Source: Parapedobacter luteus
Lineage (GTDB): Bacteria > Bacteroidota > Bacteroidia > Sphingobacteriales > Sphingobacteriaceae
DNA: 64,000 bases
Assembly: GCF_900168055.1 (NCBI RefSeq)
Contig: NZ_FUYS01000001.1
Location: 124,001 to 188,000, forward strand
Direction: 5' to 3'
Shown: positions 1-14,805 of the stretch, piece by piece
How the letters are laid out: every line of letters begins with the position of its first letter
Numbering within the stretch: position 1 is the stretch's first letter
Program-made: the position numbers and the translations under genes
The notes under the pieces: model-generated
Told to the model about the DNA's origin: nothing
What the model saw: the letters and a program-made list of their open reading frames with translations, nothing else
Database searches by the model: none

Positions 1-1461
1 CACAGCATAATCCTTTTTCGCTGCACTGTACCAGTCGTCTAAAGCCTGTTTGGTCATTTCCGCATCGCCCTTTTCGGCGATCGCCATAAGATGCTTGACT
101 GGCGGAGCTTTGCGGTCGTTGTCACTGTCGTCTGCTGTAAAGATGATTTGGACCTGTACATCAGGATTGGTTTTGAGTATTTCCTCCAATATCGGGTGGG
201 CCTTTGCACAAGGGCCACAGTAAGGATTGCATACTTTGATGATTTTATGGGCCGCATTCGGATTGCCGAGCGTGATGCCCAGTCCGGCGGTGGGTTCGGT
301 GACAAATTTTTGTTTAGCTAGCAGTGCGTTGAAAAGCGCCGGATTACGCTTGAAACGAGCCAGTTCATTCCGATGCATCCGCCCTTCCTTGGCTTGCCTG
401 AATAAGGAAATGCCCCCTGAGCTGATAGCAAACGATATAGCGAAAGCTAAGGCAAGGCGAATAACTTCCTCAAGATCTACAAGCAAGGGCGATAGGGGGT
501 GGCTTCCTACGAAAAATGCCACCGCTTGGGCCAACAGGACGGCCTGTACAGCAAGGCACAGGACGCACCACTGTTTGGCCACGCGCCACTGGTAATATAC
601 CGAAAAGAAAACGTATGGTGCAGCCAAGAGCGTAAGGTATCCCAGTGTCGAGTTTACTCCCCTATTAGGAATATCACTAATCAATAACGTTAATAATTGG
701 CCGCCGAAATAGGTAAATCCAATTATGCTCCAACTGACACCAAAGAGACTGGAGGCCTTGGATTGAAGTATGGCATCACAGTTGACCTTTTTACCTCCGG
801 AACATACCTGCTTTAGCAGCGGATTGTGCCGGTCGACTTCATGCCATAGCAGTAATGAACATACGAAAGTGCCGAATAACGAAAGTACGAGGTATACAGA
901 CGGCCAAAGTGCATGTGTGCCCAAATGGATGGCATAGGTAGCTATCTTCATGATGGCTAAGAGCGGGAGCAATAGCGCGGCAATCGAAGCAATTATTTTC
1001 CCGCGTTGGGTTGTTTGAACATGTCTATTGTAGTCTTTTTCTGGCCTAACGGAGGAAGCATCAGCGATGAGAATTACGCCTGTGAATTTTGCGTGGAAGC
1101 TTTCGTCGGATTCTGTAATCCATTTTCCACGTTCGGGATGAAGATAAATGACGGAATTTGGGGATACCTGCTTTACCACGGTGAAAAGTGCTTGCGCACC
1201 CAATACGGGTTGTATCTGTGCGATGAACGGTCCGACGATTTGGGGTAGTTGCTGTTTCTCTATTTTTGCAGCGACTACTTCCGCGCCAAGTCCATCGAAC
1301 GTGTCATAGATGGCCAGCATGCTGGGGTAGTCCGGATGCCCTTGCAGTGTTTCTACCAGCGAACGATCTGAAATGGGAATTTTCAGGATCTTCGCATAAT
1401 TGACCGTAGCGTTCGAAGCGTTATCATAGGTGTATAATACATTTTCGATTAAGCTTTCCAT
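1..1461 (-). CDS. VKOR / thioredoxin fusion membrane protein, 3' end cut by window edge
   Basis: An open frame runs from an ATG at 1461 down to base 1 with no stop, giving 487 visible residues; the C-terminus lies outside the window. The first ~130 residues look like the C39-peptidase-like N-terminal domain common in this family. A multi-helix vitamin K epoxide reductase (VKOR) domain follows, with the loop cysteines in CSGGKKVNC and the active pair in WCVLC. The visible end is a thioredoxin domain with CNPYCGPC. VKOR-thioredoxin fusions are known to make disulfides in exported proteins by passing electrons to quinone. Beside cysteine-rich precursors and TlpA proteins, the inferred role is disulfide formation in exported peptides. 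It is divergent from the response regulator, and a 21-bp-period direct repeat sits 55 bp before its start. Domain assignment is firm; the substrate is inferred. Confidence 0.85.
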   Translation of the reverse strand, partial: MESLIENVLYTYDNASNATVNYAKILKIPISDRSLVETLQGHPDYPSMLAIYDTFDGLGAEVVAAKIEKQQLPQIVGPFIAQIQPVLGAQALFTVVKQVSPNSVIYLHPERGKWITESDESFHAKFTGVILIADASSVRPEKDYNRHVQTTQRGKIIASIAALLLPLLAIMKIATYAIHLGTHALWPSVYLVLSLFGTFVCSLLLWHEVDRHNPLLKQVCSGGKKVNCDAILQSKASSLFGVSWSIIGFTYFGGQLLTLLISDIPNRGVNSTLGYLTLLAAPYVFFSVYYQWRVAKQWCVLCLAVQAVLLAQAVAFFVGSHPLSPLLVDLEEVIRLALAFAISFAISSGGISLFRQAKEGRMHRNELARFKRNPALFNALLAKQKFVTEPTAGLGITLGNPNAAHKIIKVCNPYCGPCAKAHPILEEILKTNPDVQVQIIFTADDSDNDRKAPPVKHLMAIAEKGDAEMTKQALDDWYSAAKKDYAV

Positions 1462-1653: not shown

Positions 1654-2397
1654 ATGAACAACCAAAGCTGTATTCTAATTGATGATGAACCACATGCTTT
1701 AGGGGTATTGGGGGATGTTGTACAAAAAATTCCCGGTTTGGAAGAGCGGGGCAGGCACTCCGGAGCAATAGAGGCACTTGCCGATTTAAAGGAGAAAGGT
1801 CCGGTGGATTTCGTTTTTTCAGATATCGAAATGCCCGATTTATCGGGGATTGAGGCAGCCAGGCAGCTTCGCCCGTATTGCAAATATTTGATTTTCACGA
1901 CAGCTCACAGTAAGTATGCGTTGGATGCCTTTGCTCAATTTGTGGACGGATTTCTGTTGAAGCCACTTAGCTTACCCGCGGTATTGGAATGCGTGGAAGA
2001 AATGCGGCAAAGGACTCGAGCCTTTTCATCGGATCAGAATGATCAGCACAGTATCTTTGTTAAAACCGGGGGCAAATTTGGCTTTGTACGGATTAGTTAT
2101 AACGATATTGTCTGTATTGATGGAGGAGATCACTATCCTTCGATAGTTACCTCGTCGGCCTCGGTGCCGGTTTATGCGACGATGGACGAGCTGGAAGAGC
2201 ACTTTTCTCAACGGAAGGACTTTATTCGTATTCGCAACAATTGCATCATTTCGATGCGAAGTGTGACAAAGGTCGATGGTAATATTGTGCATTTAGCGCT
2301 TGCCCAAAAGAATACCCGGGACATCAGCAGCTCATTCCGAAAGGCTTTTTTTGACAGAATAAACCAGCAAGCTTTTTTTACGAAGAAAAGTAAGTAA
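1654..2397 (+). CDS. LytTR-family response regulator
   Basis: A 247-residue protein with an N-terminal receiver domain (residues ~5-120) and a C-terminal LytTR DNA-binding domain (~140-238). The acidic pocket is at DDE 10-12 and the phospho-acceptor is D57 in FSDIEMPD; the conserved lysine is in FLLKPLS. LytTR domains bind paired direct repeats, and five such pairs with a 21-bp period lie in the surrounding island, so this protein is the obvious candidate regulator. The kinase gene starts one base after its stop, so the two are co-transcribed and probably translationally coupled. The family call is secure; the regulon is inferred from the repeats. Confidence 0.93.
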   Translation: MNNQSCILIDDEPHALGVLGDVVQKIPGLEERGRHSGAIEALADLKEKGPVDFVFSDIEMPDLSGIEAARQLRPYCKYLIFTTAHSKYALDAFAQFVDGFLLKPLSLPAVLECVEEMRQRTRAFSSDQNDQHSIFVKTGGKFGFVRISYNDIVCIDGGDHYPSIVTSSASVPVYATMDELEEHFSQRKDFIRIRNNCIISMRSVTKVDGNIVHLALAQKNTRDISSSFRKAFFDRINQQAFFTKKSK

Positions 2398-2398
2398 C

Positions 2399-3544
2399 AT
2401 GGAAGCAATCGGCAGGCCATATAAATTCAGCGTGTGGGCAATTATTGGTGTTCATGTGTTGTGCTGGATAGTTTATATCGCTTATGAGGTGTTTTTTGAG
2501 ACGGTATTCAGCGGAGCTTGGAATAATTCGACCAATCACATTTATTTCTATATTTTCAATGTCGCGTTGTTTTATTTTCACGCACATGTGATATTGCCTC
2601 ATGCCTTGCGAAGCAAGCTGCATGCCCTCTGGCGATTGCCGCTTTTTGTCCTTGCAGAGATTTTGTTATTTATAGTTCTTCAACTTGTAGAGGGAATTGT
2701 TGCGGGAGATATGGAGCTTCATTTTGACGGGCTTGATAATTTTGTTTTTGATGTGGAGGGGTTTGAATTCTTTGTCGTACCCCTCCTGCCTTATTTGCTT
2801 TACAGCACGGGATATTATTTTCTACATAGATATATACGTGGACAAAGCGAAGCCAAGGAAATGGAAAGGCGGCATTTTGAGCAATTAATCGCCAATCAGG
2901 AACTGGAGGCAAACCTGTTGCGGATGGAGCAGGAATATCTGCGTGCGCAAATAAACCCGCATTTGCTGTATAACACGCTGAATTTTGTGAATTATGCGGC
3001 AAAGCATAATCCAGACGATGCCGAAAAAGCGATTGTGCTGCTTTCCGATGTCATGCGCTATGCCTTGGATCCGATCGGTGATCCTTCCGGATTGGTATGG
3101 CTTGAGCGGGAGATCCAGCAGACGGAAAAACTGATTGAACTGAACCACTTGCGCTTTAATGGCAAACTACATATCCGGTTGTTGGTCGAGGGCGACGCTA
3201 ACCAGGCCCGTGTCATTCCCCTTATGTTGCTCACTTTGGTGGAAAATATTTTCAAACACGGTGAATTGCGAAAGGCTGAAGCGCCGGCGTCAATACGAAT
3301 TGTTTTAGATGGGGACACGCTGTCGGTAAGTGCCGAAAACCGTATCAGGACAGGCCAACAGCTTGACGTGTCTACGAAGACAGGACTCAGAAACCTCGCT
3401 GAGCGATTGGAAATGCAATACCCATCCAGGCACAGCTTTCACCATGGAGCGCACGATGGCATATTTAGCGCGTTTTTGACTCTTCGCCTGCAAAAAGAAG
3501 AGTTACCTGAACAACAGGTATCATCTTCTGTACTGTCAAGGTAG
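2399..3544 (+). CDS. LytS/YehU-type sensor histidine kinase
   Basis: A 381-residue membrane kinase of the His_kinase (PF06580) family. The first ~145 residues hold about four hydrophobic membrane segments with no obvious extracellular sensor domain. A short coiled stretch follows, then the phospho-acceptor region QINPHLLYNTLNF with H188. The ATPase part has the N-box LVENIFKHGE and the later TGLRNLAERL. It starts one base after the LytTR regulator stop and is its cognate partner. In Gram-positive peptide systems such kinases often sense the exported peptide; that could hold here, but nothing in the sequence shows the ligand. Confidence 0.92.
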   Translation: MEAIGRPYKFSVWAIIGVHVLCWIVYIAYEVFFETVFSGAWNNSTNHIYFYIFNVALFYFHAHVILPHALRSKLHALWRLPLFVLAEILLFIVLQLVEGIVAGDMELHFDGLDNFVFDVEGFEFFVVPLLPYLLYSTGYYFLHRYIRGQSEAKEMERRHFEQLIANQELEANLLRMEQEYLRAQINPHLLYNTLNFVNYAAKHNPDDAEKAIVLLSDVMRYALDPIGDPSGLVWLEREIQQTEKLIELNHLRFNGKLHIRLLVEGDANQARVIPLMLLTLVENIFKHGELRKAEAPASIRIVLDGDTLSVSAENRIRTGQQLDVSTKTGLRNLAERLEMQYPSRHSFHHGAHDGIFSAFLTLRLQKEELPEQQVSSSVLSR

Positions 3545-4868: not shown

Positions 4869-5099
4869 TTAGTTAGGGCAAGTAGCTGTTTCTTCTGCGA
4901 TTACATCTCCGTTATCACATTTGCAAGAAACTTCGGTTTGATCTCCGTTTGTTTCGCAGCTCCCTGACCCTGTGCAACCACAGGATACCGGCTCCTCATC
5001 GCCACAAGCAATCGCCGCGACACACGCGAATCCTCCAACTATGTTTTTCATTTGATCTCTGGTTAGGATTTCACCAAAACTTAAATTTAAATGTTTCAC
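4869..5099 (-). CDS. Double-glycine-leader cysteine-rich peptide precursor (8 Cys core)
   Basis: A 76-residue precursor starting at a GTG; no in-frame ATG lies nearby. The 23-residue leader ends in LTRDQMKNIVGG, a double-glycine leader of the Bacteroidota natural-product type (similar to TIGR04149) that C39-peptidase ABC exporters cleave. The 53-residue core is acidic, rich in Gly, Ser and Thr, and carries eight cysteines, two of them as CGC and CKC. An even cysteine number beside VKOR and TlpA proteins suggests a disulfide-bonded exported peptide. No modification enzyme (LanM, radical SAM, YcaO or ATP-grasp) is seen in the window. Activity (bacteriocin, signal or other) cannot be told from sequence. 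The leader matches the precursor at 14593-14805 closely. Confidence 0.85.
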   Translation of the reverse strand: MKHLNLSFGEILTRDQMKNIVGGFACVAAIACGDEEPVSCGCTGSGSCETNGDQTEVSCKCDNGDVIAEETATCPN

Positions 5100-5372: not shown

Positions 5373-6263
5373 TTAGTATATTGACCGTAAACTTCGGTAA
5401 TAGGTGTTCAAATTTGTAAAAGCGACTATATTCAACATGATCATCATCGCCGAAAAGAAGTACAACCGTAGGCTGATAGCAATGCACACATGCATCAAGA
5501 TGATGGCTAAAAGCCAGGTTTTTCTGGTCTTTGGTAGGTTGATAAATAGCGGATATCCTAATTCAAGTAATATAACCACCCAACCAGCCAACGTAAAGAC
5601 GAATGGAAAATAACTCAACACGTCAGCTTGTTGAGCAACGCCGGTGGCCAGATAAGGAAGATGGATAGCCTTCCATATTGCCTCGCCATTATGCCAGTTA
5701 TAGCCAAGTGATTTCTCGGCTCCTGAAAAAAAATATACAATAGCGAGGTGAAGTTGCAGTACGCGTCTAAAGGGTGTGTGGTTATGTATAAGCCAGTTGC
5801 CAACGAAAAAGACCACACAATAGAATAGGGCGATGGTTTTAAAGTAATCAATGCCGTAGGCATAAAGGGGGGAACCCTTGGTCAGTATCAAATGCAAAGA
5901 AAGCACGACTAAGGCGCTTAATGGAGGTATCCATCCGCAACATAACGTAAGGCAGGCAGATATATATAGGGTTTTGAATGCGATGGCGGTAGTTTCTTCA
6001 CTTATGCCTATGGATTTATTGAGCCAATCAGCGAGCTGGCCGAATGAGGGAACCCAGCCGGTTTTAAATAGTCCTATGAGTTCAGCCGGTACAAAGCCAT
6101 CATTGCCATAAAGCTTAAGGAAGTCCTGCCAAATAGCACAGAAATGAACCAGACAGATAAGCGATACTGAAACCCTTAGAAAAGATAAAAAACCAACGTC
6201 TCGTTCGTCCCTACTGAAGAAGAAATTGTCAAAACGGGTGATTGCTGTACCAATAAGGCTCAT
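5373..6263 (-). CDS. HTTM-domain (SdpB-like) polytopic membrane protein
   Basis: A 296-residue protein with about seven hydrophobic segments, opening with FLSFLRVSVSLICL and LYGNDGFVP, typical of HTTM (horizontally transferred transmembrane) proteins distantly related to vitamin-K gamma-carboxylase. The bacterial relative SdpB is needed, with SdpA, to mature the disulfide-containing SdpC toxin of Bacillus. The preceding gene (6282-6878) carries an aromatic FFAPN signature resembling SdpA/DUF5819 partners, only 18 bp away. A role in maturing or exporting a small membrane or secreted peptide is therefore plausible. No His/Lys carboxylase core was recognised, so enzymatic activity is not claimed. 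Confidence 0.7.
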   Translation of the reverse strand: MSLIGTAITRFDNFFFSRDERDVGFLSFLRVSVSLICLVHFCAIWQDFLKLYGNDGFVPAELIGLFKTGWVPSFGQLADWLNKSIGISEETTAIAFKTLYISACLTLCCGWIPPLSALVVLSLHLILTKGSPLYAYGIDYFKTIALFYCVVFFVGNWLIHNHTPFRRVLQLHLAIVYFFSGAEKSLGYNWHNGEAIWKAIHLPYLATGVAQQADVLSYFPFVFTLAGWVVILLELGYPLFINLPKTRKTWLLAIILMHVCIAISLRLYFFSAMMIMLNIVAFTNLNTYYRSLRSIY

Positions 6264-6281
6264 ATTTAACTACATAGGATA

Positions 6282-6878
6282 TTACTTCGCTGAGATGATT
6301 AATTGGTCGATAAACAGCAGGCTCGGTTCCTTGTCGCTAAGTCGGAACATCTCCAAGGAAGGGAAATGATAGAGGTATACAGCTGCTTCGATTTTATCCG
6401 TGGATTCGTCGGCTGCTAACATACTCGTAGCAATGGACCTCATGATGGCATTTAGACGGCGCAAGTTCAAATGTTGCTTTTCGCTCAGTTTATCTTCGGC
6501 GATTAGTTTATCTTGGAAAGCATCTATTAACGAGGAATAACGTATATAACTTTCTTGGTGGGTAAAATCAGGTAACCAGCGAAGATGAGCTGGCGCCCCA
6601 GTGGAGTCACAAGTCTTGAACTCCAAAATAAAACCACTGCTCACATTGGGAGCAAAAAAGCCATAACCGGCATCGACTCCTGCAAAGAACATGTACCAAT
6701 TGACCATTTTAATGCCATTGACTACATGGCTGGCTTTGTGAAGTGCTGAAATTAAGGCGGGGGGCTGCTTACTGTAAAACGAAATATAGCCACCGATGCA
6801 ACTGTCCACGCATACACTGCAAATGATCACAAAGTGAAAAATGATAACGATAGAGAACAAAAGCTTCCTCCTGTCCAC
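6282..6878 (-). CDS. SdpA/DUF5819-like single-pass membrane protein (putative)
   Basis: A 198-residue protein from a GTG start, two bases after the stop of the small gene before it, which suggests coupled translation. One N-terminal membrane segment (~7-30) precedes an extracytoplasmic domain containing GYGFFAPNV followed by a beta-like FILEFKTCDSTGAP. This FFAPN signature resembles partners of HTTM/SdpB proteins (SdpA and DUF5819 families); the match was made by eye and needs a profile search. The HTTM gene follows 18 bp later. It is not otherwise recognised. Confidence 0.55.
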   Translation of the reverse strand: MDRRKLLFSIVIIFHFVIICSVCVDSCIGGYISFYSKQPPALISALHKASHVVNGIKMVNWYMFFAGVDAGYGFFAPNVSSGFILEFKTCDSTGAPAHLRWLPDFTHQESYIRYSSLIDAFQDKLIAEDKLSEKQHLNLRRLNAIMRSIATSMLAADESTDKIEAAVYLYHFPSLEMFRLSDKEPSLLFIDQLIISAK

Positions 6879-6879
6879 C

Positions 6880-7137
6880 TCACTCGTACTTGGCTAATAT
6901 ATGATACACATGTTCGAGTTGCTGTTCATTGATTTGATGACTACTGCCGTCTGTTGTTGTTTTCTTTTGTTTTGTAATAATCGTTTTCCCTTCATCTTCG
7001 TTGGTTGTAGGTCCGTGGCTAACGTGTAAAACGGTTTCTTCAATTGGGTTCAGTGTAGCTTGTTTGCTGATCGTCTTTTCAAGCATAGCAGCAAGAGCAA
7101 TGACGAGGCTCCAGGAGATAACGTTGTACTTTCTCAT
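6880..7137 (-). CDS. Small membrane-anchored peptide, unknown function
   Basis: 85 residues starting at ATG 7137. A longer frame opens at 7248, but that would place a direct-repeat operator (7199-7229) inside the coding region, so 7137 is preferred; it leaves the operator 61 bp upstream. The protein begins MRKYNVISWSLVIALAAM, a signal or membrane segment. The rest is polar and rich in Thr, Lys and Gln with no cysteines. It is the first gene of a three-gene unit with the putative SdpA- and SdpB-like proteins, the position a toxin or substrate would take. No family was recognised. Confidence 0.5.
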   Translation of the reverse strand: MRKYNVISWSLVIALAAMLEKTISKQATLNPIEETVLHVSHGPTTNEDEGKTIITKQKKTTTDGSSHQINEQQLEHVYHILAKYE

Positions 7138-7198
7138 AATGTGTTGATCTGATGAATTATATCTGAAATTAGTTGTTAGGAATGTCCCTTCTAAATTT

Positions 7199-7229
7199 AT
7201 TACGAGAAAGGCCAGAATTATTACGAGAA
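7199..7229 (-). promoter_or_regulatory. Putative LytTR operator C (21-bp direct repeat)
   Basis: ATTACGAGAA at 7199-7208 repeats identically at 7220-7229, period 21 bp. It precedes the small peptide / SdpA-like / HTTM unit with the same orientation and spacing (61 bp) as operators A and D. Confidence 0.6.
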
Positions 7230-7412
7230 TAGGTGTTTTGTGGGGCAATCAGTGCCATTCAAACACTCCAAATAGCGGTTGTAATGGTAGCTGTCTGATG
7301 GCGTGACGAATTTCCGGTTAACGAAGCCGTACGTGGCAGCAAAATCATCGGTCTGATTCAGTGTTGCCATACAATAGAGAGGTACGCCCCTTTTATTCGA
7401 AAAACTTGGTAG

Positions 7413-7529: not shown

Positions 7530-9060
7530 ATGAAAATATTTTGTTTTTTCGAGGTGCGTAGTTTAGCGCTTTTTATTATCTCCCTTTTTGCTTCTCTCCA
7601 ATTAAATGCCCAACGAAGTTACTATACACAAAGCGGCTATACCTCTTTAACTATAAAGCTGTCCGGAGATTATCCGGAAACTGTTGATATTTCAAACGCT
7701 CACTCATCTAATCCCTTGTCATCTGACAAACCGAGTAAGTTTCAAAGTATTAATGATTCTACCTTCGAAATTTCATTTTTCACTTTTGGACCGACTGCCG
7801 TTTATTTTAATTTTAACAACCAGTATTTAAGTTCGGTTTTATTGCCAAATCAATCGGATGTTTTGTGTATCCATTACACGGACGTTACGAGTTACGACAT
7901 GAATTATCAAGGGCATTTTAAGGAATTCTTCGATAATTCACATTTGTTGCCGAACCTGATTAGAAACTCCTTTGATTTCGGGCTTGGTCCCGTCCCGGAA
8001 AAAACAGGGGCAGCAGCTACGTTTAAAAGTGCGCGCGAGTTCAGGGATGCTCGTCTTCGACATATTAGAGAGATGATAGCAGAGCTGACTAAGGATGTGG
8101 AGTCCGCTGCTTTCAGGGAAGTTTACAGTATTGGTATTGAAGATTTTTTTAAGGCTTATCTTCCAGACTATTATGCGGCTGTCCAAAAATATAATAGCGC
8201 AATCGGTTTAGATTCATTGGATGCGCTTTTGCATATACCAGAGCGTGATATATCCTATTATGACGATATTATTGATGATAAGTACACGGATACGACTTCG
8301 CTAATTTCATCGTCTTATTATCGTTTTTTGAGCAGTATCAGTAAGGATTCGCTGCTTAATCTACCTGTAATCAGCGATGCCGGACCAGATGTTTACCGAA
8401 ACAGATTGAAAGAACTGTTTGGCCGTATTTTTCAAACGGATGATAATTTATTCTATGACATGATGGTTGCAAATGCATACGTTGGTCAAATCGCTGATGG
8501 TCAATTATTGTCCAGTCAGCAAAAATATGATGTAAGGCGGTACTTTAAGAACAAAGCTATTAGCAATTATATTTTGCATCAAAATGATGCGAATGCTCAA
8601 TTGTATAATAATATACCAACCACAAGGAAATATTACTTTCCCTTTGAGCGACAAAAGGATTCGGTGATATCGGACATCGTGTCACGGTATGCAGGCAAGG
8701 TCATTGTCATGGACTTCTGGGCTACCCTGGTGCGGGCCCTGTATAGAAGGATTTGATAAGATGAAAAAGGTAAAAGCTAAATACGCCGAGCAAGACGACG
8801 TGGTATTTGTTTATATAACAGACGAGTCTTCGAATTATGAGAAGTGGAATGAGTATGTCAGCCTTCTAGGGGATGAACACTATTATCTATACGATAGCCA
8901 GCGTTTTGCGCTGGGAGATCTATATGGTTTTAAAAATATTCCCGCCTATTTGATTTTCGACAAGAAAGGAGAATTGTCAAAAATGTACGTCGGCGTCGAT
9001 ATAACTGAAGCAAAGGCCATAACATGGATCGAAAACGCCCGGGCTATGGAATATCAATGA
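7530..9060 (+). pseudogene. TlpA-like thioredoxin protein with a frameshift in its active site
   Basis: The frame from ATG 7530 encodes a signal peptide (cut near LNAQ) and a long helical middle region, then reaches DFWAT at residue 399 and stops at 8756. The overlapping +1 frame continues with WCGPCIEGFDKM and a normal thioredoxin end to 9060. Removing one C from the run CCC at 8725-8727 restores WATWCGPC and a 509-residue protein like its neighbours. So there is a single inserted base (or an assembly error) exactly in the catalytic motif. As written, the product would lack its whole thioredoxin domain. It stands alone on the + strand with a weak direct-repeat site upstream. No peptide precursor is seen directly before it. 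Confidence 0.8.
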
Positions 9061-9105: not shown

Positions 9106-10437
9106 TTATCGTTCATTTAATACCAACCGGATATTTCTGAATAGCCGTTGTAATAAAGAGGCATCTTCCGTGATGATTTCAGCAGTGCCTGACATGCCTG
9201 TGGTCAACTGGACCGTCTTTTGGCTTACCATAGGCCGGAAATCCACACGAGAAAGGAAGATGCTGTCCCGGTATGGCACTGCGCTCAATCGGCCTACCTG
9301 GCCGCTCAATGCCCCATACTCCTCGAATGGGTAGCTATCAAGTTTGACTAACACCTCCTGTCCTTCCTTCACTTTTCCCATATTATATTGAGGTAGGATG
9401 ACCTCTCCGAAGAAATCGGAGCTTCCAGGGTTGACATGAAACACCTCCTGCCCGGCGTCGACATGCTGATTGCGCTGGATGATGCCAGCGAAAACCACCG
9501 AGCCGTTGGCGGGCGCGGTAAGCACATACTGCAATTTCCATTGTTGTATCTCGCTTATCAGACTGTTTAGCGCCTGGAGGAACTTTGAGCGTTCCTCGGC
9601 GATCTGATTGTCCAAGTCGGCAAGTTCCTTTACCTTGGCGGTTTGGCTGGCCTCGTTGGAGAGTAAAGCTGATTGTGTTTGCTGCAAAGGATGCCGCTTC
9701 GCTAACAGGAGGGCCTGCTGCTGCTGATATTCGGCAGGAGATATCACCTTTCGGTCGGCAAGTTGCTGATAACGGTTAAACGCTCCTTCAGCAAGTTCGT
9801 ATTCCTGTTGCTGCAGTTGACCTTGGGACTCAAGTTGTGCGCGTTGCTGTTTCACGTTCTGCAACTCACTCAGGATGTATGCACGCCTTTTCAAATAAAT
9901 ACCTGACCCCGTTGCGGCTTGGTATGTAAGGTAAGATTGGTAAAAGGTCTGGTAACCGGGCTGCAATTCTCCCAGTCGGAGACCTGAGGGCGCTATCATG
10001 TTGGCAGGAACTGTATTCGCCTGGCTATATAAGCCTTCTCGGATATGCTGAAGTATTTCCATCAATCTAGCTACCTGAGCGTGGTCAGCCGTGCTTTCCA
10101 TCCAGGCCAGCGGTTGTCCGGATTTGACGGTGTCTCCTTCGTTTACCAGAATATTCACAATACTGCCTGACAACCTACAGATAACCGCCTTGGGGGCATT
10201 AACGGCATTGATACGTACTGGTGCCCGGACGATGTCCGGGTAGCGGATAAAGGCAGACAGGGCAATGATGCCTATCAACACGAATAATACCCAAGTGATG
10301 CCCCAGCGCAGTAATGCGCTGGGGGGCTGCCCGATGATGTCCTGGATATCTTCGGAATGGGCTTCCCGTCCATTGTAAGAAGCGGATAGTCTGAAGCCCC
10401 TGGTTTGCTGCCCGATGTTCGATGTCTTTCCTCCCAT
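9106..10437 (-). CDS. HlyD-family membrane fusion protein for peptide export
   Basis: A 443-residue periplasmic adaptor. A short cytoplasmic N-terminus is followed by one membrane helix (LLRWGITWVLFVLIGIIAL, ~48-70), a split lipoyl-like domain (first half near SIVNILVNEGDTV, second half near APANGSVVF), a long glutamine-rich coiled coil (~155-290) and a C-terminal beta-barrel region. It lies 18 bp downstream of the C39-ABC transporter gene on the same strand, the usual exporter/adaptor pair for double-glycine-leader peptides in Bacteroidota. An outer-membrane TolC partner is not in the window. The frame is intact even though the transporter is interrupted. Confidence 0.9.
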   Translation of the reverse strand: MGGKTSNIGQQTRGFRLSASYNGREAHSEDIQDIIGQPPSALLRWGITWVLFVLIGIIALSAFIRYPDIVRAPVRINAVNAPKAVICRLSGSIVNILVNEGDTVKSGQPLAWMESTADHAQVARLMEILQHIREGLYSQANTVPANMIAPSGLRLGELQPGYQTFYQSYLTYQAATGSGIYLKRRAYILSELQNVKQQRAQLESQGQLQQQEYELAEGAFNRYQQLADRKVISPAEYQQQQALLLAKRHPLQQTQSALLSNEASQTAKVKELADLDNQIAEERSKFLQALNSLISEIQQWKLQYVLTAPANGSVVFAGIIQRNQHVDAGQEVFHVNPGSSDFFGEVILPQYNMGKVKEGQEVLVKLDSYPFEEYGALSGQVGRLSAVPYRDSIFLSRVDFRPMVSQKTVQLTTGMSGTAEIITEDASLLQRLFRNIRLVLNER

Positions 10438-10455: not shown

Positions 10456-12636
10456 CTAACTTCCCAGTTCGAGCTGGTTTTTGACCAGCTTATAGTACTC
10501 TCCCTGTTGCGCCGCCAATTGACGATGTGTGCCCTGTTCCACCACCCGGCCTTTGTCGAGTACGACAATGTTATCAGCATGGCTCACCGTACTAAGGCGA
10601 TGTGCCACAATGATAGCGGTTCGGCCTGTGAGAAAGCCTTTCAGGTTGTCAATAATAACGCGCTCGTTGTTGGCATCCAACGCATTAGTGGCCTCATCGA
10701 ACAAGATATAATGCGGGTCTTTATATACCGCACGGGCAATAAGCAGCCGTTGTCGCTGCCCTTGGCTGATGCCTTTGCCTGCAACACCGATTTTGGTTTT
10801 TAATCCGAAAGGCTGCTGTTCTACGAACTCATCAAGGTTTGCTATGCGGAGCGCTTGCTCCACACGTTGCCTGTCGGGAGCTTCGTCGCCCACGGCGATG
10901 TTGCGCTCGATGGTGTCGGCAAAGATGAAGCCGTCCTGCATGACTACTCCGCACTCGCTGCGCCATGTGGCAAAACCGATTTGGCTTAATCTGTTTTGCC
11001 CAATGCGCAATTCGCCCGCCTCCGGCTCGAAGAAACGGAGAATAAGCTTAAGGACGGTGGTTTTGCCGCTCCCACTCACGCCCACGATGGCCGTAGTCCT
11101 GCCTTCGGGAAAAATCAAATTGATATTGCTAAGCACAGGCTCGTTTCCTGCGCCCGGATACCGGAAGGTCACCCCGTTGAATAGGATGCTCTTGTCGCGC
11201 GGGAGTTTCCGCAACCACTCCTTCTCCACAGGCTCCTCGTCTTCTTCCCGGTAAATCTCATTGATACGCTCTAGGCTGATTTTTGCATCCTGGTACGATT
11301 GGATGAAGCCGAGCAACTGTTCAATAGGGCTGCTCACCATGCCCACGATGTACTGGATGGCTACCATACCGCCTAGGGTAAGGTCGCCGTCGATAACGGC
11401 TTTGGCGCTCATGAACGTGATGAGGATGTTTTTCAATTGGTTGATGGCCATGGAGCCTGCCTGTTGGTATTGCGAAAGGGCAAGGCTTTTGACTTTGAAA
11501 CGGAACAATCGGGCTTGTATCGTTTCCCAAAGCCAACGCTTCTGCCGTTCTGCATTGTTCAGCTTGATTTCCGGCATAGCGCTTACAAGCTCCACGATGT
11601 TGGTCTGATTGTCTGAGGCTACCCCAAAACGGCGATGGTCCAGTTCGCGCCTGCGCTTAAGAAACAGCAAAATCCATCCCGTGTATAGTACTGCGCTACC
11701 CATGAAGATGAAGAAGATCCCGGCGTGGTAAAAAGCCAGCACAAAGCCGAATACGATGAGATTTATCAAGGAGAATAATGTGCCTAATGTTGAGCTGGTG
11801 AGGAAACTCTCAATACGCTGCTGATCGGCCATTCGTTGCATAATATCGCCGGTAGTCTTCGTCTCGAAGAACTTCATGGGCAGCTTCATCAGTTTGATGA
11901 GTAGGTCGGTGAGTACAGAAATGTTCACTCGTGTACTGATGTGCAGTAATATCCATGAGCGGATGAAATCAACACCCGTCTGTCCGGCGAATAAGGCAAG
12001 CTGAGCGAAGAGAATAAGGTAAATGAAATTTAGATTACGCGTATTGATACCGATATCTACCACTGATTGGGTAAGAAATGGCATGACGAGCTGTAAAATC
12101 GTGCCAACGAACAAGCCGAGCAAAAGTTGGACAAACAGGCGACGATAAGTATAAAAGTATCGAAAAACCGTGCTCCACTGCAGATGTTCACTTTTTTCCT
12201 CATTGCTGTTGTAAAATTGTGGCGTAGGGCTAAGCAATAGTGAAAGACCTTGGTGAAGTTCTTTATGGGCGAACCAGTTATCAGCGAAATCTTTGTTTGT
12301 GTAGGTCTGCTTACCCGAAGCCGGGTCAGCGATATGATAACTGTCATTCTTTATTCGGTAAAGCACCACGAAGTGATTTTGCCTCCAATGCAGGATGCAG
12401 GGTAAGGGCACCTTTTTTAGCTGCGCTAAGGTAAGCCGGACACCCTGTGTACGAAAACCGACTTTTTCCGCTGCCTCACTGATACCAAGTAGGTTTGCTC
12501 CGCCTTAGGTGACTTGAGAGAATTGCCGCAGACGATAAATGTCGATATTGCGACCGTAAAACCGGCATATCATGCGAAGGCATGTTGCTCCGCAATCCAT
12601 TTGGTCTTGTTGACGGTAAAAAGGGAAGGGTTTCAC
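10456..12636 (-). pseudogene. C39-peptidase ABC exporter interrupted by an in-frame stop
   Basis: Read from GTG 12636, which has AGGAG nine bases upstream, the gene encodes a 726-residue bifunctional exporter. The C39 peptidase domain has C15 in QMDCGATC, H88 in NHFVVLY and D104 in IADPASG. A six-helix ABC membrane domain and a nucleotide-binding domain follow, with Walker A VSGSGKTT, signature ISQGQRQRL, Walker B ILFDEATNALD and AHRLSTV. Codon 44 is TAA (12505-12507), between the catalytic Cys and His; the reading frame is the same on both sides. Homologues normally have Lys or Arg-Glu/Gly there, so one base change (such as AAA to TAA) explains it. Restart at GTG 12411 would give a transporter without the catalytic Cys. 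This is the only peptide exporter in the window. Confidence 0.85.
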
Positions 12637-12670: not shown

Positions 12671-12844
12671 TTAATGCTTAAAGATTTCTTGTAAATCTTG
12701 TATAAAACGTGTATTCATATCGCTTCCTACGTATCGTTTTAGAATTTCCTCCGTAGGGCTAGTTAAGATTTTTGTTGGTAATAGATGCACGTCGTATTGG
12801 TCGCTAATATCAAAGTTCGTATTTCTACTTCTAAGAATGTTCAT
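12671..12844 (-). pseudogene. C-terminal remnant of a thioredoxin/TlpA-like gene
   Basis: A 57-codon frame from ATG 12844 ends 34 bp before the exporter start. Its text, with YDVHLLPTKILTSPTEEI and ending LQDLQEIFKH-like residues, matches the end of a thioredoxin fold: the cis-proline strand (LPTKIL), the following hairpin and the last helix. The CxxC half is missing, and no matching upstream frame is found in the next 230 bp. It is read as a truncated relic in the exporter operon; a stand-alone small protein is less likely. Confidence 0.5.
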
Positions 12845-12852
12845 AATAGATT

Positions 12853-12936
12853 TTATGCCTTATCTCGTCTTGCCATCGCAGCACATATGAACAAAAGTGC
12901 AATACAGAGTAAAATTGCAGATATTTTTCTTTTCAT
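12853..12936 (-). other. 27-residue hydrophobic ORF, possible signal-peptide relic
   Basis: ATG 12936 opens a 27-residue frame beginning MKRKISAILLCIALLFIC, a good signal or membrane segment, and ends at a stop eight bases before the thioredoxin remnant. It may be the N-terminal piece of that same lost gene or a real tiny membrane peptide. The rest of 12937-13081 holds only an imperfect inverted repeat (AAGCCGCTT / AAGCGG, 12959-12987), with no T-run. Confidence 0.3.
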
Positions 12937-13081: not shown

Positions 13082-14593
13082 CTAATTAATTTTACCGATA
13101 ACTTCTTCCAAACTGCGTAGGTCACTTGGACGAGGCGCATCGTTGTTGATGGTCTTGCCTTGACTATCTGTAAGCATATACCTTGGTATAGTATTTATTT
13201 TGTGCAATGTTTCTAAGTTGTTTTTTAGCACGTCACCCGCATAGACATGCAATCCATTCAATTCTTTCCTTTGGATTATTTCTATCCAACGACTCATCTT
13301 ACCTGGCTCATCGATAGAAACGTATACGGGCATCACATTTTTATCTGCCAATATTTGGTGAGTTTTGGATTTATTATCGAATTCCAAAATGCATGGAATG
13401 CACCAAGTAGCCCAAAAGTCAATATATAGGCTGCTGTTTTCGCTATAATGTTTCGCCAGCTCTTCAAGTGAGCTAAGCGTGGCAGCGCTGTCGATTATCA
13501 CTATTTGTCCGTTTTCATAACGTAGAATTGTCGAGGTGGCTTTGGCGCTGTCATTTGCTGATTCGGTTAATACCTTTAGGGTGACTCTCGATTTAACTTC
13601 AGTAGTTTTGGACGCTATGTAGGGAATAAAGGGGCTTTCCTTGAATTTGCTTTTGAAAAAAGCAAGTGCCTTTTCATAGTCATATGCACTGGCAGCATAC
13701 TTTTCTTGGAGGACGAGATTTGACGCCAAACAAAACTCCTGTTGTATGGGTGATAGCGCCCCATAATATTGATACATGCCAAATATACTGTATTCTGGAA
13801 GCCTCGTGCGGAAATCATTTTTCAATTTAAGGTACCTTCCGTAGCAACTTAAAAAATTTCGTCCTCTTATACAACTTACTGTTAGACTACTATTGATTAG
13901 ATGCTCATCAAAAACATAGGCGAGGAATTTGCCTGATTGATAAAGTGGTATTTGCTCAGTAAGTAGTACAGTTAATAGCGGTCTGTCAAAAAACTCAAGA
14001 TACAATGCGGTATAAAAATACGAATAACTGACTTCGCTCAATTTGCCTTTTTTAAGCAGATCTTCATAAGGTTGAATGGTTTTTTTCCACTCAGCGTTAA
14101 CATATGACACTAAGGAGTCATGGTCATCAAGCCGACTTAAAATTTGCCGTGTTAACCGTTCCCGATATTCGGGAGTTAATCGCTTTTTGTAAAGATTATT
14201 CGCTTCACTGTGGTTGCCTTGAAACGTGACAACGTGTTGTCCTTTTTCTAAAGTTTCAGTCACTGTCACAATATCCCCGGGCTCTATATAGCATAAGTAA
14301 TGATCTTTGCCTAAATAAAATTGTGCGAATGAGGGTGATTCCAAATCAAAAGAAATCTGTACCTGGTGATTCTTTTTTACATATCCGTCGGTGATTGGGA
14401 AATAACGATTAAAAAAACCACCGATCGGTGGAAAAAAAGTGAAGTAATTAGTGCCTGAACGGTTAATATCCTTGATTTCTATTCGGACTTCGGTCTTCAA
14501 GGCTCGCAAAGGACTCGGTTTGTCGTTAATTGACGAACCGAGTGTGGAAAGAAGACCACAAATCAGTGGAATAAACGCCAGTATACTATGCAT
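13082..14593 (-). CDS. Secreted TlpA-like thioredoxin protein paired with a peptide precursor
   Basis: 503 residues from ATG 14593, which shares its A with the TGA stop of the preceding precursor gene (TGATG overlap), so translation is coupled; a longer frame from 14632 would overlap the precursor. A signal peptide (MHSILAFIPLICGLL) is followed by a beta-rich region with the IEPGD motif usual in Bacteroidota TlpA proteins, a long helical region, and a C-terminal thioredoxin domain with WATWCIPC (C398, C401) and IPRYML near the cis-proline. The WCIPC variant differs from WCGPC in the two sister genes. The coupling is strong evidence that this thioredoxin and the precursor at 14593-14805 work together. 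Confidence 0.88.
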   Translation of the reverse strand: MHSILAFIPLICGLLSTLGSSINDKPSPLRALKTEVRIEIKDINRSGTNYFTFFPPIGGFFNRYFPITDGYVKKNHQVQISFDLESPSFAQFYLGKDHYLCYIEPGDIVTVTETLEKGQHVVTFQGNHSEANNLYKKRLTPEYRERLTRQILSRLDDHDSLVSYVNAEWKKTIQPYEDLLKKGKLSEVSYSYFYTALYLEFFDRPLLTVLLTEQIPLYQSGKFLAYVFDEHLINSSLTVSCIRGRNFLSCYGRYLKLKNDFRTRLPEYSIFGMYQYYGALSPIQQEFCLASNLVLQEKYAASAYDYEKALAFFKSKFKESPFIPYIASKTTEVKSRVTLKVLTESANDSAKATSTILRYENGQIVIIDSAATLSSLEELAKHYSENSSLYIDFWATWCIPCILEFDNKSKTHQILADKNVMPVYVSIDEPGKMSRWIEIIQRKELNGLHVYAGDVLKNNLETLHKINTIPRYMLTDSQGKTINNDAPRPSDLRSLEEVIGKIN

Positions 14594-14805
14594 CAAACAT
14601 TGTGGCAAGTGATAGTACTGCCTTCGCCACAATATTCATCGGCGAGAGCCTCTAATGCTTCCACATCAGTGTTTAAACTTGGATGAGGGGAAAAACCCCC
14701 GGAACCGCTGTCACAGAGGCAGGTGAGTTGCATCTCACCGCCATTGACCTTTTTCATTTCATCTTTAGTCAACTCTTGTCCAATTTTTAATTTTAGCGCA
14801 TTCAT
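14593..14805 (-). CDS. Double-glycine-leader cysteine-containing peptide precursor (4 Cys core)
   Basis: A 70-residue precursor. The 23-residue leader ends ELTKDEMKKVNGG and aligns residue for residue with the leader at 4869-5099, while the cores differ. The 47-residue core has four cysteines (TCLC near the start, EYC and ITC near the end) and an internal DVEALEALAD stretch recalling the NVEALA peptides of Bacteroidota. The stop overlaps the start of the TlpA gene. A direct-repeat operator lies 59 bp upstream. The likely product is an exported disulfide-bonded peptide; its activity is unknown. Confidence 0.85.
   Translation of the reverse strand: MNALKLKIGQELTKDEMKKVNGGEMQLTCLCDSGSGGFSPHPSLNTDVEALEALADEYCGEGSTITCHNV

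Follow-up and report, generated by a model that had tools for sequence, protein, structure and literature searches.

A probable recent nonsense mutation in the exporter gene of a double-glycine peptide locus in a Parapedobacter species

Can a bacterium that keeps a whole set of genes for double-glycine (GG) peptides still cut and export their products? This question is raised by a 64,000-nucleotide stretch of the Parapedobacter luteus genome (the window), in which the gene for a C39-peptidase/ABC exporter (PCAT) is interrupted by an in-frame stop codon. The exporter frame and its parts are as follows.

10456-12636, minus strand: C39-peptidase/ABC exporter frame of 726 codons, broken at codon 44 (assigned from read-through domain matches and alignment)
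12505-12507, minus strand: in-frame TAA, codon 44, between C15 and H88/D104
12505-12636, minus strand: open reading frame of 43 residues, the N-terminal peptidase piece, with Q9 and C15 only
10456-12411, minus strand: open reading frame of 651 residues from GTG 12411 (codon 76), with H88, D104, the membrane domain and the ATPase, and without the catalytic Cys

On the minus strand, the frame begins at GTG 12636, reads VKPFPFYRQQDQMDCGATC...SQVT-TAA-GGANLLGISEAAEK...NHFVVLY...IADPASG... and ends at 10456. An earlier note on this DNA had placed the stop at codon 44, between the catalytic Cys and the His and Asp residues, and both the coordinates and the residues proved correct, with C15 at 12594-12592, H88 at 12375-12373, D104 at 12327-12325 and Q9 present as well. 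The AGGAG site that it had described for the GTG start is likewise there, in the form of GAGGAG located 10 nt upstream, in a phylum that makes little use of Shine-Dalgarno sequences (Bacteroidota; PMC6847099). When the stop is read through, the frame matches the Pfam families Peptidase_C39 (E = 8.8e-37), ABC_membrane (4.7e-27) and ABC_tran (7.9e-27), so that a full transporter does follow in the same frame. However, these three domains share one chain only if the TAA is read through. As sequenced, the uninterrupted reading frame typical of a PCAT is lacking, no single polypeptide is encoded, and just the 43-residue (C15) and 651-residue (H88, D104, transporter) open reading frames are translatable. 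Because codon 44 is the sole stop within 726 codons and the frame is conserved along its whole length, the read-through frame is not a product of chance. In PCAT1, cutting involves C21, H99 and D115 together with Q15 (PMC6959990). The residues Q9, C15, H88 and D104 are all present in the window and near invariant among 90 relatives, but they are set apart by the stop.

The relatives of the exporter are intact. The read-through frame aligns over its full length with uninterrupted genes of 725-728 residues in sister genomes (80-82% identity), and the orthologues in G003, G005, G006, G007 and G014 (71-82% identity) are intact as well. None of the 94 full-length relatives extracted (90 distinct) contains an internal stop, and the disabling lesion is thus absent from the intact orthologues, as is typical of a pseudogene. 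At codon 44, the 90 distinct relatives have a sense codon that varies, encoding R in 68 and K in 18 of them and N, D, I and Q in one each. Parapedobacter indicus, P. koreensis and other sisters share the pairing of the exporter (71-82% identical) with an HlyD protein and mostly have a C39-VKOR gene nearby; unlike the window, they combine an intact exporter with at most one or two precursors, as counted with the same profile. In one sister locus (L051 3882-8085, G006), the intact exporter adjoins genes for two LanC-like proteins and a glycosyltransferase-like protein (named by eye), which were not seen in the window cluster.

The stop had been described as affecting the only C39-ABC exporter. 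This statement holds within the window but not for the genome: a search of its 28 contigs with the exporter protein and the Pfam C39 model, a check that the earlier note had proposed, identified just one other copy, located at C16:301105-301673 on the same contig, 165 kb away. This copy is far more decayed than that in the window. Its residues 1-131 are joined out of frame to residues ~645-706, with ~132-644 deleted; an ATT stands at the codon where others start, the first in-frame ATG lying just before the catalytic Cys; and its HlyD gene is split over two frames and contains an internal TAA. The proposal that the stop leaves the precursors without cleavage and export is supported by these findings, as little is left of the transporter in the other exporter and its HlyD partner is broken. 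The two remaining C39 matches are C39-VKOR fusions of 545-556 residues, with a C39 match that begins only at position 17 or 26 of the model. They are not exporters and, on visual inspection, seem neither catalytic nor able to stand in for the peptidase. The following protein of this type lies at the edge of the window.

1-1461, minus strand: C39-like/VKOR-type protein, part of 545 residues, intact, crossing the left end of the window

By these protein and Pfam C39 searches, the 99.99%-complete draft encodes no intact C39 exporter. Compensation by a second exporter was rejected, as the only other copy is defective and neither C39-VKOR fusion looks catalytic. The second GG locus (L049 8013-12928; C16:298-303 kb) comprises GLPGLI, precursor and C39-VKOR fusion genes alongside the decayed exporter and HlyD genes, and it adjoins parA-, parB-, dapB- and lepB-like genes (named by eye).

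The peptides that would depend on this export route are encoded by a large gene set, two members of which lie in the window.

14593-14805, minus strand: double-glycine precursor of 70 residues (...LTKDEMKKVNGG...), intact
4869-5099, minus strand: double-glycine precursor of 76 residues (...LTRDQMKNIVGG...), intact

The stops listed for these two genes are their terminal codons, and the earlier description of both precursors as intact stands, although it undercounts the family: a profile search detected ten intact precursors and a truncated one (C16:114226) in the genome, with nine of the ten on C16 and one on C19. Sister genomes yielded at most two each with the same profile, which was built from sequences of the genome itself, so that the sister counts may be low. 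The copy-2 precursor passes TIGR04149 (26.2 versus a cut-off of 25 bits), and the window precursor at 14593-14805 scores below curated cut-offs of the TIGR04149/TIGR01847 type. Precursors sit beside GLPGLI (TIGR01200) or TlpA-like genes, and the units to the left of the window occur in duplicate, with 79-96% identity. One GLPGLI duplicate pair shows a dN/dS of about 0.10, which indicates that selection has acted on the accessory genes since the pair arose. The adjoining region on the left (L050; C16:114000-124000) is a duplicated array of GG precursor and GLPGLI genes with short remnant reading frames, in which one precursor ends before its GG. Elsewhere, a lone pair of a precursor and a GLPGLI-like gene (L173; C19:22499-23694) lies far from any C39 exporter.

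The surroundings of the exporter comprise both intact and damaged genes.

9106-10437, minus strand: HlyD-family membrane fusion protein, intact, directly downstream of the exporter
13082-14632, minus strand: TlpA/thioredoxin-like protein, intact; the listed start overlaps the precursor gene, and the true start is probably lower
12671-12844, minus strand: remnant, the C-terminal end of a TlpA-like protein, 57 residues (411-residue open frame with a match in G007)
12854-12936, minus strand: short signal-peptide-like open reading frame, by eye probably the N-terminal remnant of the same TlpA-like gene
7530-9060, plus strand: TlpA-like gene, split in two: a frameshift near 8725 immediately precedes the CxxC motif
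1654-3544, plus strand: within the cluster, genes for a LytTR-type response regulator and a sensor histidine kinase (from inspection of the sequence)

As had been claimed, the HlyD gene downstream of the exporter is intact. Upstream, the middle of the TlpA-like gene represented by the remnants at 12671-12936 is missing. In L165 and L085 (Pedobacter namyangjuensis), the homologues of the split TlpA-like gene continue collinearly through the frameshift point. Long reading frames cover a fraction of 0.72 of the cluster, compared to 0.90 and 0.92 on either side, a difference that stems in part from the short precursor genes expected in such clusters. The TlpA frameshift, the TlpA remnant and the truncated precursor are unrelated lesions, and they speak for real local decay. 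The cluster also includes a gene at 5373-7248 (minus strand) with weak similarity to SdpB (TIGR04033, E = 7.5e-6, below cut-off), which adjoins two small genes without family matches and may form an Sdp-like set with them.

The sequence of the exporter outside the stop bears on the age of the lesion. The protein is altered at just 2 of the 218 columns with a conservation of 95% or more in the alignment of relatives, its branch length (0.111) falls within the range of its four closest sisters (0.103-0.152), and it carries 24 private substitutions, compared to 20-25 in the sisters. Neither branch length nor private-substitution count reveals an acceleration after the lesion, and based on these two measures and the conserved columns, we rejected an old pseudogene. 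The dN/dS ratio was measurable for one pair only (0.067), synonymous sites being saturated between species. If constraint had been absent over more than a small percentage of the branch, this would, by a rough estimate, have been expected to show. Given normal evolution outside the stop, three readings are left: the stop arose very recently, it is not real, or it is tolerated. The branch, substitution and column tests would come out the same for an exporter lost too recently to show it as for one never lost. Private changes do fall somewhat more often in the peptidase part (11:13 against 22:69, p = 0.045). However, this is one of several comparisons, and the branch lengths of the two partitions are unconvincing, so that we do not claim a peptidase-specific relaxation.

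Taken together, the sequence data suggest that a recent nonsense mutation has probably inactivated the exporter of a locus for GG-peptide processing and export in this Parapedobacter species; the change is probably of very recent origin, a base-call error being the less likely alternative. In the normal state, the N-terminal C39 domain would bind the GG leader and cut after the GG, and the ABC core together with HlyD would pass the mature peptide out of the cell; in PCAT1, the leader is bound by the peptidase domain and not by the membrane domain (PMC6959990). With translation now predicted to end after 43 residues, no fused peptidase-exporter would be produced. The second exporter had decayed earlier, through an internal deletion, loss of its start and lesions in its HlyD gene, and the ten remaining precursors would be expected to stay uncleaved inside the cell or to be unexpressed.

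A counterpoint to this loss is that the rest of the exporter gene and HlyD look fully functional. A healthy gene, an equally healthy HlyD and an expanded precursor family would fit a working exporter and point to a base-call error or a tolerated stop. The first of these options, a sequencing or assembly error with an exporter that is intact in the living strain, is unlikely. In its favour, a single wrong base would be enough, and the remainder of the exporter, HlyD and the precursors show no relaxation. On the other hand, the draft is good (28 contigs, 99.99% complete, 0.18% contamination), and no other internal stop was found among the 42 ABC places in this genome, two further places flagged with stops having ordinary terminal ones. 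Moreover, substitutions are a rarer kind of assembly error than indels, there are further lesions only a few kb away, and the second copy shows unmistakable decay.

We consider it distinctly less probable that translation restarts at GTG 12411 (codon 76) and yields a 651-residue exporter without the catalytic Cys, which would act like exporters with an inactive C39-like domain, its peptides being exported uncleaved or trimmed elsewhere. The restart product would presumably bear a loose resemblance to exporters with a Cys-less C39-like domain (HlyB type), with the difference that its own domain would be truncated at the N-terminus. No in-frame start lies between the stop and GTG 12411, which is preceded by the sequence AAAAAAG, with A at positions -3 and -6, an arrangement that favours initiation in Flavobacterium (PMC6847099). 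The AAG-GTG sequence is created by the exchanges E75K and I76V (12409-12414, minus strand), which none of the closest sisters shares, and the slight concentration of private changes in the peptidase part could be read in the same direction, despite the reservations stated above. However, a start-like codon between positions 45 and 90 also occurs in 87 of the 90 relatives, so its presence means little. In addition, the product would lack residues 1-75 of the leader-binding domain (for its role, see PMC6959990); the absence of these 75 residues and of the nucleophile excludes cutting and makes recognition doubtful. It is more improbable still that the stop is tolerated, with a 43-residue fragment bearing the Cys and a restarted 651-residue exporter side by side, in a lineage that exports GG peptides uncut while expanding its precursors. 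Least probable of all is read-through that provides some full-length exporter, since, normal constraint downstream of the stop notwithstanding, TAA is generally the least leaky stop, the 120 nt downstream show no unusual RNA structure (z = +0.56), ARAGORN detected no tRNA genes in the window, and no relative keeps a stop at codon 44.

The favoured reading, a recent loss of the exporter, has a precedent in the pneumococcal blpA gene, in which frameshifts or gained stops truncate a C39-ABC exporter, leaving ~75% of strains without functional BlpAB (PMC12150690). In both cases, the bacteriocin or peptide cluster is kept despite a truncated GG-peptide exporter. However, the pneumococcus exports via the paralogous ComAB system (PMC12150690), whereas the sole paralogue is broken as well in the present case, and the loss of BlpAB is known as a frequency across strains, compared to one genome of the species here. 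GG-leader precursors next to a C39-ABC exporter, often accompanied by a membrane fusion protein, are common in Bacteroidales, and the PCAT-GG and bacteroidetocin clusters of that group show the same pairing of precursor and exporter (PMC10352776). In contrast to these clusters, the precursors described here are paired with GLPGLI (TIGR01200) and TlpA-like genes, the array is duplicated and the exporter is interrupted. A search for literature on Parapedobacter bacteriocins returned nothing relevant. That an exporter can be lost while the peptide genes persist is already known, and the new element is the additional loss of the paralogue, together with the large precursor set. The case is thus ordinary in kind, an instance of gene decay with a mildly interesting twist. 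If the stop is real, this bacterium keeps, and has expanded, about ten genes for exported peptides, while both dedicated exporters have been lost, the last one very recently. The locus would then show a peptide export system in the course of its decay and serve as a warning for genome mining that intact precursor and HlyD genes do not prove a working cluster.
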